This document shows, one piece after another, positions 15,194-23,298 of a DNA stretch of 23,467 nt. Below the pieces are notes generated by a model that saw only the letters and a list, made by a program, of their open reading frames with translations, had not been told where the DNA came from and searched no databases. Origin of the DNA: a virus. The DNA lies in IMG/VR virus record IMGVR_UViG_3300042923_001280, positions 1 to 23,467 of that record; one strand, written 5' to 3'. A program made the translations under genes and the position numbers. The first letter of the stretch is position 1, and each line of letters opens with the position of its first letter.

Positions 15194-16864
15194 CTACTTT
15201 TTAGGCTTCCATTTTTTGATTTCTTTTTCCTTTTTACCATCAATAATGCAAAGAATATTGTTAGTTAACTCACGAATACCGAGAACTACAATTTCTCCGG
15301 CAGCTGTTTGTACTCTAGCCTCATCAACATATTCTTGATTATTTGTAAGAGCTAAAATCATGTCATCATCAGTAGCAAATTTATCTTTATCTACTCCAAC
15401 ACTTAAGAAATGACTGAACATTTCAGGAAGAACAATTTCAGCACTAAATTCTTGTTTAGCTACTTGGAAGGAAGTTTCATGATATTTCTCTTGAAGCGCT
15501 GGGCTATTTGCGATTTCGATAAGTTGGTCAACTGTATCTTGCAAATCTTCCTTGTCAGAATAAACCGCAGAGTAAGGAATATCAATATAACGACGTCCAT
15601 CACGAGTACGATTGTTTTCACCCCAATGTTTATCAAATACTGGGATTGTACCTACAGCAATTGTTTCAATTTGAGTATACTCCATACGATCACCATAATC
15701 ATTTGGAGCTTTAGGCATGCGATAGAAGGAAGCACCAAACAATGTTTTTGCAAGTTCAGTCATACCTTCATTACGAACGTAAGGTCCATAGACTGGAACG
15801 AAACCAGTTGGTTGCTCTGGAGCTTTTTTACCAGTCAAATCCAAAGTATTTGGGTGGTCAAAGATATCGCATTTAGCGCCAATTGAGCGTTCAATACCAA
15901 GAAGAGAGTATTGGAATTCTGGGTCAACTGTCTTTAACAATGGAGCCAAGTCAAGTACTCGGCGTGGATCTTTCATTGTAGTCCAACGACCAATATACAT
16001 GAGCTTTTTTGTTTTGTCAGCCAAATCATATTTGTTACGATAGTTTTCCTCTAATTCATCAAAATTGAACCACATTGCAAATTTCTTAACTCTCTCGCCA
16101 AGAGTTTTAGAAGGGAGCAATTTGGAAATTGTTTTAGAGAACCAAGTTTCTTCACCAAAGTTCATGATAACATCCATTTGATTCATCATGCCAACGACAA
16201 AAGGAATTTTGTCAATATTAGTTTTATTCAACTCATGCATGAAACCTACTTTTGTTGTAGTTACTTTCTTTACTAAATCGTTGTAGAAAGCTAAAATGGT
16301 ATCGTTTTCAAACTTAGAAGACGGATACGAATTGAACATCACTACATCGAATTGATTTAGTTGTTCAACGATTGCTGGAATATCGTCTTTCATAAAAGAT
16401 ACAAAATTAAGTTCATGCGCATCCCGACGATTATACATACGCTCGTCATATGAATATAACGTGAAATCAACATTGTTTTTATTAGCCCAAAGTTGCATTT
16501 CTACTCCCGTGCGTGTGACTCCACCAGTCAGTTATGTTAGAGTTTTTTATCTCTAACTCTCCTCATTTCTAAGGAGTGTCGGGCTATATCATTACCCTCG
16601 ACTTTACGTTAGGGTACCCTGCACTCTTGGACCTTTACTGCCCGTTCAGGGCTCCATGGTCTAGTCTCTGAACCTTACTATCATTCCTGACAGTCTTGGC
16701 TGCTGATTAGCATATACGTGTTTCACAACAGATAATTAGCTTCCCAGCAATTCACAGGGTTTGCGCTATAAAGTTTCCCTTATAGGGGGCATGGTTGTCT
16801 ACCCTTCGATGGATTGTCCGAATACCATTGCAAACTTTTTACCTTTAAGATTTTCTAATGACAT
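15194..16864 (-). CDS. T4 alpha-glucosyltransferase-like DNA glycosyltransferase, split by a group I intron
   Basis: Coding parts are complement 16801-16864 (21 codons plus one base) and 15194-16524; joined they give 464 aa. Splicing creates FGQSIEGCGVTRTGVEMQLW, which aligns with the loop EGCGVTKFSLEQ of T4 AGT as I recall that sequence. Further matches to T4 AGT are YIGRWTTMK (Arg201, Lys206; T4 IGRTTTWK), LLGIERS (T4 MEGLERS) and MEYTQIETIAVGTIPVF (about 302-318; T4 LEYTHLELGACGTIPVF), the donor-binding part of the GT-B fold. T4 AGT moves glucose from UDP-glucose to 5-hydroxymethylcytosine in DNA; base and sugar here are inferred. Ribosome binding site GGAGG before ATG 16864. Without splicing, translation stops after residue 21. 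ATG 16498, with GGGAG five bases before it, could start a 434-aa product from unspliced RNA. Confidence 0.88.
16525..16800 (-). ncRNA. Group I self-splicing intron, 276 nt, no ORF
   Basis: Read on the - strand. The 5' exon ends GGGU (U at 16801) and the intron ends CUG (G at 16525). IGS CCAUGCCC (16794-16787) pairs GCCC with exon GGGU (P1, with the usual U-G at the splice site) and CCAU with GUGG of the 3' exon (P10). P3 is ACCCUGUG (16760-16753) with UGCAGGGU (16623-16616). P4 is UUGCUG (16750-16745) with CAGCAG (16705-16700), with A-rich joiners. P6a is ACUGUC / GAUAGU. The P7 strands are AGAGACUA (16669-16662) and UAGCCC (16586-16581), with P8 ACCCU / AGGGU. P7.1 (GACC/GGUC) and P7.2 (GCCC/GGGC) before the 3' strand of P3 indicate subgroup IA. 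P9 CUCCU/AGGAG and P9.1 GUUAGAG/CUCUAAC follow. Confidence 0.92.
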
Positions 16865-16930: not shown

Positions 16931-16984
16931 CTTTACATGATTTTTCGAAAAATAATGTACGAGAATGTAAAGATGTGATATAAT
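16931..16984 (+). promoter_or_regulatory. Divergent control region: palindromes plus extended -10 promoter of the gene array
   Basis: -10 TATAAT at 16979-16984 preceded by TG one base upstream (extended -10) and followed by TATATATATAAG; the -35 is weak (TGTACG, 16956-16961). Immediately upstream are a perfect 14-bp palindrome ATTTTTCGAAAAAT (16940-16953) and an 8-bp inverted repeat CTTTACAT (16931-16938) / ATGTAAAG (16965-16972). The weak -35 inside palindromes suggests a regulated promoter, possibly shared with the divergent glucosyltransferase gene. Confidence 0.6.
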
Positions 16985-17033
16985 ATATATATAAGAAGGA
17001 ACACAGTTAAATATGACACAGGGGGTTAGAAAA

Positions 17034-17333
17034 ATGTTAATTAATTTGAAAAAATCAGTAAATGAAGCAAAAAGAAAACTCATGTTAGAAAATCAGTATG
17101 AGTTAGCCAATTCTATTACATATATGTTCAATATGATTGTAAGACATAACAATAGAGACACAAAGCTTGATTTTGAATTTTTCAAAAGAAAGCTTGAAAT
17201 AGCTATAAACGTACTCGAACAAAAGAAATTGGCAATAAATGAAAGTACATTTATTGATACATCTGCAGTGTTAGATACTTATGATGCTTATGTAGTAATG
17301 ATAACTATTACGAATGAAAGCAGAGCAATATGA
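17034..17333 (+). CDS. Motif-sharing array protein A1, 99 aa
   Basis: First of ten short tandem genes. Start placed at ATG 17034 (MLINLKKSVNEAKRKL), nine bases after AGGGGG; ATG 17013 in the same frame has only a weak site. All-helical, basic and soluble; the middle has YMFNMIVRHNN, resembling LVFAMIVRNEK in A3. It ends AVLDTYDAYVVMITITNES, the array's shared motif (hydrophobic-x-[DE]-A-Y-V-V). No known family. It is probably one of a set of paralogues made early in infection from the strong upstream promoter. Confidence 0.72.
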   Translation: MLINLKKSVNEAKRKLMLENQYELANSITYMFNMIVRHNNRDTKLDFEFFKRKLEIAINVLEQKKLAINESTFIDTSAVLDTYDAYVVMITITNESRAI

Positions 17334-17357
17334 AACAAAAAGTAAAGGAGGACTAAA

Positions 17358-17663
17358 ATGACCGAACAATTAATAAAATCTATTAATGTTGCTATAGATT
17401 GTGCTGCATCAATTTATCAAGTTGGATTGTGCTATGAGTTTACAAGATTTAGAAATTCATTGAATATCTATAATAATAGATACTATTTAGATTATCGTAT
17501 TGTTCCAACGTTAGATGACTTTAATCTTGATATTTTAAGATTCAATCTTAGACTAGCAGATAAAGCTTTTCCAGAATATGAACATGAGTTAAAAACTATT
17601 AAGGATACGATAGAACAAATTGAAGCCTACATAACAATGATCGCACTAACAGAGGAGAATTGA
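17358..17663 (+). CDS. Motif-sharing array protein A2, 101 aa
   Basis: ATG 17358 follows AAAGGAGG. Helical product with a Tyr/Asn-rich middle (LNIYNNRYYLDYR) and C-terminus DTIEQIEAYITMIALTEEN, the shared motif. It is about the same length as A1 and A3-A5, has low overall identity and the same layout, and is taken as a diverged paralogue. The stop lies one base before the next gene's ATG region, so translation is coupled. Confidence 0.74.
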   Translation: MTEQLIKSINVAIDCAASIYQVGLCYEFTRFRNSLNIYNNRYYLDYRIVPTLDDFNLDILRFNLRLADKAFPEYEHELKTIKDTIEQIEAYITMIALTEEN

Positions 17664-17664
17664 T

Positions 17665-17955
17665 ATGATCTGGCAGTTACAAGAACTAATAGAAAAAATT
17701 GACATAAAGCTCCTTTACATCAATGAAACTATACTTAATGAGCATATTAAACTTGTCTTTGCTATGATAGTAAGAAACGAAAAAGGAGGAAAAGTTATAC
17801 ATCAATCTCTTGTAATTTGTACTCAATTGGCAAGAGATATTTTTAATGAAACAAAATGCATGTTAGATAGCAATACAATTATTGATATTGAACAAGTACT
17901 TGATATGTTTGATGCATATGTGACTATAAATGAACTTACTGGAGAGATGATATAG
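17665..17955 (+). CDS. Motif-sharing array protein A3, 96 aa
   Basis: ATG 17665 with GAGGAG inside the end of A2. Helical; LVFAMIVRNEKGGK in the middle matches A1. The C-terminus IIDIEQVLDMFDAYVTINELTGE is the clearest C-terminal form of the shared motif and reads on to NELTG, close to the NELADG that follows the motif at the N-terminus of B2. No known family. Confidence 0.76.
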   Translation: MIWQLQELIEKIDIKLLYINETILNEHIKLVFAMIVRNEKGGKVIHQSLVICTQLARDIFNETKCMLDSNTIIDIEQVLDMFDAYVTINELTGEMI

Positions 17956-17957
17956 TA

Positions 17958-18233
17958 ATGAACGATGATCTTAATGTTGCAATTAATTCCCTTCGAAAAA
18001 AGTTTCAAAAAGGGACTCACAATAAACACACAATTGATAGAATTCTATTTATTGCTAACCAGGCGGTAAAAATTAAAACTTCAGTGAAAGATTGCAATTG
18101 GTATGTTGAAATTGTTAAACATGACCTTGAAATGAAGAGAAATGAATTTGACAAGGAGACTATAATACATATTGAACAAATAATAGATGCGCTTGAAGCT
18201 TATGCTATAATTCTGGAATTAGTAGGGGGTTAA
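17958..18233 (+). CDS. Motif-sharing array protein A4, 91 aa
   Basis: ATG 17958, two bases after the A3 stop, ribosome binding site GGAGAG. Basic helical protein ending TIIHIEQIIDALEAYAIILELVGG; TII-IEQ-hhD is shared with A3 over about 25 residues, which supports paralogy. It is the shortest of the set. No known family. Confidence 0.76.
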   Translation: MNDDLNVAINSLRKKFQKGTHNKHTIDRILFIANQAVKIKTSVKDCNWYVEIVKHDLEMKRNEFDKETIIHIEQIIDALEAYAIILELVGG

Positions 18234-18234
18234 G

Positions 18235-18537
18235 ATGATAATTCTAATTTCAAAATTAAAGTCTCAGAGAGACAATATTGTTAAACAATTAAATAAATCA
18301 AAAAAAGCAAAATTTGTTTTTATCATTAACAATTTCTTTGAGTTTAGTGAAAGATGGGAATGGTTTGAACACGTTCGTAAAACTGAAAACAAGTGGTTGT
18401 TTCAAAAATATCTAAGTGATATTAAGAATGAATTTTATTTTAATAGAAGTTGTCTAAATAAATCTACCATAAAAATGGGAGAAAATTTCATTGAGGAACT
18501 TGAAAATTATGTCATACTAATGGAGTTGTCTAATTAA
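18235..18537 (+). CDS. Motif-sharing array protein A5, 100 aa
   Basis: ATG 18235, one base after the A4 stop, with AGGGGG. Lysine- and Phe/Trp-rich (FVFIINNFFEFSERWEWFEH). The C-terminus is FIEELENYVILMELSN, the most diverged C-terminal copy of the motif (Asn for Ala). The stop TAA overlaps the next ATG by one base (TAATG). Confidence 0.75.
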   Translation: MIILISKLKSQRDNIVKQLNKSKKAKFVFIINNFFEFSERWEWFEHVRKTENKWLFQKYLSDIKNEFYFNRSCLNKSTIKMGENFIEELENYVILMELSN

Positions 18538-19064
18538 TGCAGACTATAAATCTAAAGAGCCCAGCAATTATTTTCTATAACGAAATTAAACAACTTGATT
18601 TTGAAAATGGGTGTTGGCAATTATATGTAGATGTTAAATGTGAACATTGTGGCCGTATACAATCATATGTTACTCATGGTAATAAATGTGTTGTTTGTTT
18701 AGAAACTTCTGATTTTGGAATATTAAAGCTTGGAAAAACTCCAATATCTTTTATCGGTAAAGAAAATGCTCAAAAATTTCAAGATGAGTTTGATTCAGTC
18801 TTGGTAGCTGCAGCTTTTGCTGGTTACAATAATGCGCATTATAGGTTTCATACTTATGGAAATAAACCATATCTTCATATTCAATTTAAAAAAGGTTTGA
18901 AATTAATTATATTGTTTTTGTTTGTTGAACGTCAAGATAATATGTTTGGCGGAGTTATTAGATATGGTTGTAATGTCACTGATATAAACGGAACTCTTGA
19001 TGACAGTTATCTTGAAATAGAAGATTTTTCACCAGTACTTGAACGCGCGAGGAGGAATATGTAA
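18537..19064 (+). CDS. Array protein B1, zinc-ribbon protein without the shared motif, 175 aa
   Basis: The longest gene of the array and the only one without the [DE]-A-Y motif at either end. It has a CxxC...CxxC zinc ribbon (Cys35, 38, 51, 54) and then a mixed alpha/beta part (ISFIGKENAQKFQDEFDSVLVAAAFAGYNN, YLHIQFKKGLKLIILFLFV). The hydrophobic strand pattern may relate to the bodies of B3 and B4. It ends ...ERARRNM with stop TAA overlapping the next start (TAATG), and sits exactly where the motif switches from C- to N-terminal. No known family. Confidence 0.74.
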   Translation: MQTINLKSPAIIFYNEIKQLDFENGCWQLYVDVKCEHCGRIQSYVTHGNKCVVCLETSDFGILKLGKTPISFIGKENAQKFQDEFDSVLVAAAFAGYNNAHYRFHTYGNKPYLHIQFKKGLKLIILFLFVERQDNMFGGVIRYGCNVTDINGTLDDSYLEIEDFSPVLERARRNM

Positions 19065-19444
19065 TGCATGAAGCTCTTGAAGCTTATTATGTTACAAATG
19101 AATTGGCTGATGGTATTTGTAAGGCAAAACCTAGTTGGGACTTTGGAGTACTTTTATACTCTTATATGCTTTATTATCAATCAATAGAGATTTCTGAAAA
19201 GAGAAAATCTTTAAGAGTTGTTGTTAAAAAAAGATATTTGCATGATGCAAATAAAATTTTCAAAATTTCAAACAATACAACATGCTTTGATTTCAATACG
19301 GATGTTGCGATATTTGAAATGTTTTATGATTCAATTGAAGACATGATAGAACACTTGCTTTTAATTCCGTCAGAACTTGAAAAGTGGAATAAAGCAAATA
19401 GAACAATGATATATAAGGAGCTTGGATTGGAGGATGATAAATAG
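19064..19444 (+). CDS. Motif-sharing array protein B2, 126 aa
   Basis: ATG 19064 eight bases after GAGGAGG. The shared motif is at the N-terminus: MHEALEAYYVTNELADG. The body (DFGVLLYSYMLYYQSIEISEKRKS...) is mostly helical and ends acidic. Compared with A4 (IIDALEAYAIILELVGG) the motif is nearly the same but at the opposite end of the protein. No known family. Confidence 0.75.
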   Translation: MHEALEAYYVTNELADGICKAKPSWDFGVLLYSYMLYYQSIEISEKRKSLRVVVKKRYLHDANKIFKISNNTTCFDFNTDVAIFEMFYDSIEDMIEHLLLIPSELEKWNKANRTMIYKELGLEDDK

Positions 19445-19803
19445 TGGAAGTACATCCATTAATTGATGCATATGTAGTAATGCGTAACTTGTATGGTGAC
19501 AATTTTATATTTTTAGACAGTTGTGAATTTGGTAACCGTTGGGACATGCGTAGTCCATATAAGGGAAATCTGTATATCAATTTCATTGCTCTCTATAAGG
19601 ATAAGGTGGTATTTCTTATAGGAGACCAAACTAAAAAGTATCTTTCGGAGCTGTTTAACTCCCAGGGAATAGAGTATGAAATTATTGACTACGATACAAC
19701 TGTTCAATTTAGAGTTAAAATGACGCCTGAACAAATCATTGAATTTCACAGTAACTTTAATAATACGCTTAGGAGAATAGAGGATGATTTAAGTGGAAGT
19801 TAG
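19444..19803 (+). CDS. Motif-sharing array protein B3, 119 aa
   Basis: GTG 19444, ten bases after GGAGG and overlapping the B2 stop. N-terminal motif MEVHPLIDAYVVMRNLYGD. The body INFIALYKDKVVFLIGDQTKKYLSELFNSQGIEYE is clearly paralogous to B4 (IDYIALYTDKVVFFIEEYLSYYAKEFFDRMGYKYE). It looks like a small alpha/beta fold. It overlaps B4 by 11 bases. Confidence 0.78.
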   Translation: MEVHPLIDAYVVMRNLYGDNFIFLDSCEFGNRWDMRSPYKGNLYINFIALYKDKVVFLIGDQTKKYLSELFNSQGIEYEIIDYDTTVQFRVKMTPEQIIEFHSNFNNTLRRIEDDLSGS

Positions 19804-20203
19804 TGAACTTATAGATGCATACGTTGTGACTGAACAACTGTCTGGAAGAGATGTAAAATATATTGATAATGAACTTGGAAAAAGATATGTCTTTATGCGT
19901 CCGTATATTAGCAATGCAGCAAAAATTGATTACATTGCTCTCTATACAGATAAAGTAGTATTTTTTATAGAAGAATATCTATCTTACTATGCTAAAGAAT
20001 TTTTTGATAGAATGGGATATAAGTATGAAACTTGGAAAAAAGAATCTATGACCAAAAGAGGGACTCATATTTCAAGCGTAAGGTTTACAATTAAATTTGA
20101 GGAATCTGAAAAAATTGTTGAATTTGATAAAAATCTCAGAGATACAATTATAGAAATTGAGAACATGTACAAACAGTGTTTCAATTACCTTAAGAATCAA
20201 TGA
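19793..20203 (+). CDS. Motif-sharing array protein B4, 136 aa
   Basis: GTG 19793, nine bases after GAGG. N-terminal motif MEVSELIDAYVVTEQLSGRD; the body is paralogous to B3 over most of its length, including at DNA level (ATTGCTCTCTATA shared), so the pair arose by recent tandem duplication. Basic and soluble; ends in a helix (NLRDTIIEIENMYKQCF). No known family. Confidence 0.78.
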   Translation: MEVSELIDAYVVTEQLSGRDVKYIDNELGKRYVFMRPYISNAAKIDYIALYTDKVVFFIEEYLSYYAKEFFDRMGYKYETWKKESMTKRGTHISSVRFTIKFEESEKIVEFDKNLRDTIIEIENMYKQCFNYLKNQ

Positions 20204-20243
20204 TGTTCTGCATATAATTATCTAAAAGCAAAGAGGTAATTGT

Positions 20244-20594
20244 ATGCACGATACCATAGAATCATACTGCGTAACACAAGCTATCTTTGGACGGGATGCT
20301 TCCTTTTTTAAAAAAGGTGGAAAAGATTACGCAGCTTTTAAGTTGGATTCAATTATGTTTACTAAGCAAGCAGTAATTCTCAGTAATGAGTGGTTTTTAC
20401 TTCACGTACAAGATAGATTTGTTAGAAAAATTACTTCGCAGCTTATAAAAGCTGGTGTACCCAAAGAAGACATTTCGACTCAAGAAGAATCTTACGGCAC
20501 AAAAATTTATGTAATTCAACATCCAGATAAGCTTATTCCATACTTAATGAAGTTTGAAGAACAACTCAATAAACAAAAAAAACCACCCAATTAA
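20244..20594 (+). CDS. Motif-sharing array protein B5, 116 aa
   Basis: Last gene of the array; ATG 20244 after AAGAGGT, and 40 bases from B4. N-terminal motif MHDTIESYCVTQAIFGRDASFF, with GRD as in B4. The body (KLDSIMFTKQAVILSNEWFLLHVQDRFVRKITSQLIKAGV, then YGTKIYVIQHPDKLIPYLMKFEEQL) has the same strand-helix order as B3 and B4. The stop codon sits in the loop of the bidirectional terminator. Confidence 0.77.
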   Translation: MHDTIESYCVTQAIFGRDASFFKKGGKDYAAFKLDSIMFTKQAVILSNEWFLLHVQDRFVRKITSQLIKAGVPKEDISTQEESYGTKIYVIQHPDKLIPYLMKFEEQLNKQKKPPN

Positions 20595-20608
20595 GGGTGG
20601 TTTTTTAT
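20579..20608. terminator. Bidirectional terminator between convergent genes
   Basis: AAAACCACCC / GGGTGGTTTT with loop AATTAA, T runs on both sides. It ends the + strand array and the - strand glycosyltransferase gene. Confidence 0.92.
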
Positions 20609-22950: not shown

Positions 22951-23298
22951 ATGTCAGGAATAGCAAGACAAGGAGATGCTATAACGGGTACAACTAACGG
23001 TGAACATGCTGGACACTATGATGAATGGGGAAGTCCTATTCATGGATCATCTACAATAAGTGGAACTATCACATCTGGTTCTCCAAATGTATTTATCAAT
23101 GGTAAAGCGGTTGCTAGAGCTGGGGACTCTACGATTGAAAGTGATGCCTGCGATTCTGGGCAATCTGGTTCTCTAAGAAGTATTAATCGTGGAGTTTTTG
23201 TAAATGGTTTACCAGTAGCTTTAAACGGAGATGCAATCAATCCTCACAATGGAACAGCGCATATAGTTGCTGGCAGTGGTAACGTTTCAGTAAATTGA
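22951..23298 (+). CDS. PAAR-domain tail spike tip protein
   Basis: 115 aa, a one-domain PAAR protein: MSGIARQGDAITGTTNGEHAGH opens the family's first repeat; SPNVFINGKAVARAGDS and NRGVFVNGLPVALNGDAINPH are the two VFVNGxxVAxxGD repeats, ending HIVAGSGNVSVN. His and Cys residues (HAGHYDEW, DAC, NPHNGTAH) could bind the tip metal. PAAR proteins cap the spike of contractile tails and sharpen it for membrane piercing; there is no toxin extension. It is alone on + between two - strand units, with ribosome binding site AAGAAGGTGG and its own terminator. No sigma-A promoter is clear upstream, so a late promoter read by the phage sigma factor is possible. Confidence 0.92.
   Translation: MSGIARQGDAITGTTNGEHAGHYDEWGSPIHGSSTISGTITSGSPNVFINGKAVARAGDSTIESDACDSGQSGSLRSINRGVFVNGLPVALNGDAINPHNGTAHIVAGSGNVSVN

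Follow-up and report, generated by a model that had tools for sequence, protein, structure and literature searches.

Why should one short stretch of sequence close a series of small phage proteins and open the next? The question is posed by an array of ten genes at 17013-20594 of IMG/VR virus record IMGVR_UViG_3300042923_001280, analysed from positions 1 to 23,467, that is, over the whole 23,467-base record (the window), which its gene content identifies as a fragment from the genome of a giant phage akin to Bacillus phage G. Five products (A1-A5) end in, and four of the other five (B2-B5) begin with, a motif of 16 residues of amphipathic helix type, h-x-[DE]-x-h-[DE]-[AS]-Y-x-[VIT]-x-x-x-L-x-[GDN]. 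The resemblance between the A and B motifs is real but short.

The motif coordinates bear out the arrangement given in a preliminary description of this DNA, in which the motif closes A1-A5 and opens B2-B5. The C-terminal copies lie on the plus strand at 17268-17315 (A1, VLDTYDAYVVMITITN), 17607-17654 (A2, TIEQIEAYITMIALTE), 17896-17943 (A3, VLDMFDAYVTINELTG), 18180-18227 (A4, IIDALEAYAIILELVG) and 18487-18534 (A5, FIEELENYVILMELSN), and the N-terminal copies, on the same strand, at 19064-19111 (B2, MHEALEAYYVTNELAD), 19450-19497 (B3, VHPLIDAYVVMRNLYG), 19799-19846 (B4, VSELIDAYVVTEQLSG) and 20244-20291 (B5, MHDTIESYCVTQAIFG). No upstream extension to an ATG, GTG or TTG codon is possible for B2-B5, and the N-terminal placement is therefore no artefact of start-site choice.

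The C-terminal block stands out as the most conserved region when the A proteins are aligned and can thus be defined without reference to the B proteins. A model made from the A proteins alone scored 14.5 on B2, 14.3 on B3 and 16.8 on B4, in each case with its best position at residue 1-3, and 0 of 209 control phage proteins scored as high; for B5 the score was 9.4, equalled by 4/209 controls. The control proteins, 209 or 302 depending on the test, came solely from a 200-kb portion of phage AR9 and a 50-kb portion of phage SPO1. The reciprocal B-only model scored 14.4 on A1, 18.0 on A3 and 14.9 on A4 (0/209 controls as high), and was weaker on A2 (10.6) and A5 (9.9), with 2/209 controls as high in each case. 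When a 16-column model was slid along the A alignment, matches to the B N-termini, in a single register, came from the motif block alone (columns 98-99, and partly 96-97); equally conserved blocks just upstream in the same A helix gave none. Comparison of the A and B profiles with hhalign recovered the same 18 columns, pairing A3 78-95 with B4 3-20 (P 0.007), at a low hhalign probability of 5.6%. The test set beforehand, namely whether the two groups of motifs align no better than chance helices, was thereby run, and the resemblance survived both the cross-model and the sliding-block comparisons.

Genes and predicted folds of the array

The ten open reading frames (ORFs), all on the plus strand with intergenic spacing of -11 to +40 nt, are real genes in what is apparently a single operon. 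By eye, purine-rich ribosome-binding sequences precede most of them and a TATAAT lies upstream of the array at 16979-16984, a site at which a promoter scan raised no flag. A terminator-like 12-bp hairpin flanked by A and T runs follows B5 at 20577-20606, between convergent genes.

A1 (106 residues, 17013-17333, alternative start 17034), A2 (101 residues, 17358-17663), A3 (96 residues, 17665-17955), A4 (91 residues, 17958-18233) and A5 (100 residues, 18235-18537) form one family by blastp (A1-A3 E 1e-9, A3-A4 9e-6, A4-A5 5e-5), with a weak link to A2, its most divergent member. A second family comprises the paralogs B3 (119 residues, 19444-19803) and B4 (136 residues, 19793-20203), which both start with GTG and overlap by 11 nt (37.6% identity, E 2e-20), together with B5 (116 residues, 20244-20594; B4-B5 E 6e-4) and its phage G ortholog gp312 (41.5% identity to B5, E 3e-25). 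By blastp and profile comparison B2 (126 residues, 19064-19444) has only the motif in common with the others. Pfam and PHROGs searches returned nothing convincing for any of the ten proteins; beyond phage G, no relatives were found by blastn of the locus, by tblastn of A3, B4 and B5 in phages, or by scans of viral and genome contigs; and literature searches of open-licence PMC papers gave no description of the A family, the B family or the shared helix.

The remaining gene, B1 (175 residues, 18537-19064), is the ortholog of phage G gp307 (blastp E 1e-12, syntenic position) and carries an N-terminal zinc-ribbon-like element, CxxC...CxxC (C35, C38, C51 and C54; 18639-18698, plus strand), all four cysteines of which are kept in gp307. 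According to the preliminary description B1 lacks the motif, the switch from C- to N-terminus occurs across it, and the motif always sits at a gene edge. Its ten genes and the terminal motifs of A1-A5 and B2-B5 stand, but these further statements do not: behind the zinc ribbon lies a weak internal copy, FQDEFDSVLVAAAFAG (residues 81-96; 18777-18824, plus strand), identified by alignment to gp307, which holds INDKLESFIVTAQMMG at the homologous place. Since the copies in B1 and gp307 are internal, the motif is not always at an edge. As a single-copy score the B1 match is not significant (A model p 0.057, B model p 0.038); the B1/gp307 profile, however, aligns with the phage G tandem array gp489-gp495 over the motif and ~70 columns (P 0.0014). 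The motif is thus the opening helix of a domain in front of which another element can stand.

AlphaFold predicts A3 as an up-down four-helix bundle (predicted local distance difference test score, pLDDT, 90.7; predicted template modelling score 0.81) with helices at residues 2-18, 22-39, 46-66 and 69-91, the motif occupying the second half of helix 4. Its nearest viral model is phage G gp327 (template modelling scores, TM, 0.69/0.76; probability 0.99), which has a motif-like stretch at its C-terminal end; in the PDB, matches of A3 to BAG domains and designed bundles were not significant. In the B4 model (pLDDT 65) the motif lies in the opening helix, after which come four strands, a second helix, two strands and two further helices. 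Its top PDB matches are YbjN-family proteins, the best being the structure 5fr7 (probability 0.99, E 6.6e-3, TM 0.40). The YbjN fold is also found in type III secretion chaperones (PMC5398634), and goes by the name of TY-chaperones in virus-host conflict systems (PMC9503650). The B4 model, if correct, would have the same order of helix, strands, helix, strands, helix; against this stand a TM of ~0.4 on a low-confidence model and the lack of any sequence match: the YbjN profile PF10722 found nothing in the B proteins, the tested phage G relatives or the phage G genome. Without support from sequence profiles, B4 is best called YbjN-like in topology, unproven.

Recurrence in Bacillus phage G

Phage G has one of the largest genomes known for phages, and an explanation exists for only a minority of its small genes. 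The window genes are colinear with its ~210-229 kb region at protein identities of mostly 53-73%, and the array is placed between the alpha-glucosyltransferase gene and a convergent gene of 475 residues. By homology and by shared position within colinear flanks, B1 and B5 belong to the gp307 and gp312 families, at identities (28% and 42%) far below those of the flanks. In the equivalent interval of phage G, unlike the window, gp307 and gp312 stand apart with gp308-gp311 between them, and nothing corresponding to A1-A5 or B2-B4 is present.

Elsewhere in phage G the motif recurs. Using un-iterated models built from the window only, 26/677 phage G proteins reached the cut of >=10 with the A model, compared with 4/302 controls (Fisher p 0.02) and 5/677 reversed phage G sequences, and 17/677 reached the cut of >=11 with the combined model, compared with 0/302 controls (p 0.002) and 2/677 reversed sequences (p 0.0003). 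Of the 26 matches 21 lie near a protein end, where 12.2 are expected (p 0.0004); gp485 and gp494 are N-terminal examples, and gp168 and gp515 are C-terminal ones that no control equals in score. An iterated search listed 62 phage G proteins, with 12 matches in reversed sequence; as such a search fits itself, these are leads only and the un-iterated counts alone are used.

The likeness to the window extends from the B1 and B5 orthologs and the nearest A-type structural match (gp327) to gp168/gp169 and to gp485-gp497, a tandem small-protein array with the motif near the N-terminus. It stops short of whole domains: the A-family hidden Markov model (HMM) found no full-length A relative in phage G, its best match being the motif alone at the gp485 N-terminus (E 0.04), and the B4-family and gp489-495 profiles did not align as whole domains. 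Next to an RNA ligase gene, at NC_023719.1 101506-102213, gp168 and gp169 seem to form a tandem pair, both of them helical proteins similar to the A type.

Explanations for the shared helix

The genes, their families, the shared helix and its recurrence in phage G are established. Our preferred account, held tentatively, is that the array is an accessory operon with rapid turnover of its genes, made up of protein families of the phage G lineage that have one terminal interaction helix in common. It would encode, in a phage-G-like giant phage, small and rapidly evolving proteins of at least two builds: four-helix bundles in which the motif is the last helix (A), and alpha/beta domains in which it is the first, with a zinc ribbon put ahead of it in B1 (B). 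Self-pairing, or pairing with one common partner, may be what has kept the helix in both builds; the A and B products would then associate mutually or bind a shared target, which would probably be some host or phage complex dealt with in the course of infection. A putative common docking helix, as the preliminary description had suggested among other possibilities, is thus our preferred mechanistic reading. Such genes would undergo gain, loss and duplication amid conserved genes for DNA modification, in the way to be expected of host-interaction accessories, and this turnover is supported by the colinear flanks, by the much lower conservation of B1 and B5 than of those flanks, and by the absence of A1-A5 and B2-B4 from the phage G site. 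If a common docking helix exists, it would show a giant phage assembling many small proteins onto a single target. A helix shared across otherwise unrelated small-protein families also offers a handle for grouping them and concrete residues to mutate.

Several points weigh against this account. First, the association of A and B products through the helix is something we infer. Second, the motif in the A3 model is an integral helix of the bundle, with no linker and no free tag, so that its conservation could be purely structural. Third, the B4 model is modest at its pLDDT of 65, and the E-value of the structural match between A3 and gp327 is as weak as 0.25. Lastly, the motif is short, and many weak phage G matches are noise, as the reversed sequences and control phages indicate at the A-model cut; gp327 and gp169 fall below significance by motif alone.

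The chief competitor, for which we see a possible but lesser case, is structural convergence, in which an amphipathic helix of acidic-Ala-Tyr type, capped by Gly/Asn, happens to suit both folds, as last bundle helix and as first alpha/beta helix, with neither common partner nor common ancestry needed. The position of the motif inside helix 4 of A3, the low profile-profile probability and the background matches in unrelated phages all fit convergence. It accounts less readily for the fact that adjoining blocks in that A helix, though conserved to the same degree, fail to match the B proteins, for the [DE]-[AS]-Y core common to both builds in one register, and for the enrichment in phage G over controls and reversed sequence. 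Even if convergence were the whole explanation, A and B would still constitute a new protein-family pair whose locus has its ortholog in a phage that has been isolated.

A broader version of the docking idea, which we regard as unlikely though worth stating, is that phage-G-lineage giant phages would use one short interaction helix to end several unrelated folds in dozens of proteins, forming a binding network with interchangeable members, of which the array in the window would, with the same low expectation, be a compact two-build version.

Common ancestry by fission or truncation is improbable. In the ancestor a helical part would have preceded the motif helix and an alpha/beta body would have followed it; loss of that body would have given the A proteins, and loss of the helical part the B proteins. 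Several phage G proteins with 15-25 residues ahead of the motif and a beta-rich body behind it are consistent with such an ancestor, as are gp307/B1 and gp441, which hold the motif between two parts. HMM and motif comparison, however, revealed no A-motif-B fusion among the phage G proteins or in the window, that is, no protein having both an A-like four-helix part and the body of a B protein. Moreover, both sides hold the complete motif, which fission would split, and the earlier suggestion that A-motif-B genes had been cut in two is not supported.

Still less probable is a targeting tag that sends the proteins into the virion or another compartment. T4 capsid-targeting sequences and microcompartment encapsulation peptides are short helix tags joined to cargo, and those of T4 are N-terminal only. 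The motif resembles them in that, within one phage lineage, much the same short helix is found at one end or the other of small proteins that are otherwise unrelated; it differs in being part of a predicted fold, integral to the A3 bundle without a linker. In A1-A5 it is C-terminal, unlike a T4-type capsid-targeting sequence, and D is as frequent as E, so that there is no obvious site for a Glu-specific prohead protease.

Very improbable, finally, is the proposal that the motif DNA is a recombination joint for swapping cassettes between genes: its edge position and one 18-nt near match between A4 and B2 (89%) are outweighed by the codons, which at identical A-B motif residues agree in 43/91 cases against 43.6 expected from codon usage, making recent DNA exchange unlikely, and by a nucleotide identity no greater than synonymous recoding would leave (P 0.67 for its mean and 0.81 for its maximum). 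The sharing is at the protein level.

Zinc-ribbon arrays and neighbouring genes

The array is probably of a kind known in giant phages, the lineage-specific expansion of small proteins, with the A and B families and their shared helix as the apparently new elements. Phage G shows an unprecedented expansion of a zinc-ribbon family to ~35 copies (Iyer et al. 2021, PMC7824862), which like the array consists of lineage-specific small paralogs in the same phage, and B1 also bears a zinc ribbon. The expanded family (e.g. gp32) has another ribbon pattern and a C-terminal YWKENDRYL motif, neither of which occurs in B1 or gp307; we considered these two as members and rejected them, as they do not combine a CPIC-type ribbon with a YWKENDRYL tail. 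At NC_023719.1 353893-371001, ~28 tandem genes of ~180-225 codons (gp447-gp474) were seen, and those inspected have CPIC-type zinc ribbons and a YWKENDRYL-like end; they presumably belong to the published ~35-copy expansion.

Among the flanking genes, the helicase, the alpha-glucosyltransferase and a thymidylyltransferase-like gene are 60%, 65% and 63% identical to those of phage G. The alpha-glucosyltransferase gene is split near its 5' end by a Group I intron (Rfam RF00028, 87.5 bits) at 16559-16810 on the minus strand; its short upstream exon is visible and starts MSLENLKGKKFAMVFGQS. At 22951-23298 (plus strand) the window encodes a 115-residue protein related to phage G gp118 (E 4e-6), annotated as a PAAR-motif protein, whose genome position differs in phage G. 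At NC_023719.1 220725-221564, between a methyltransferase gene and gp304, phage G has two small proteins with a motif-like N-terminal stretch, gp302 and gp303; they are without counterpart in the window, which suggests a further site of gain or loss.

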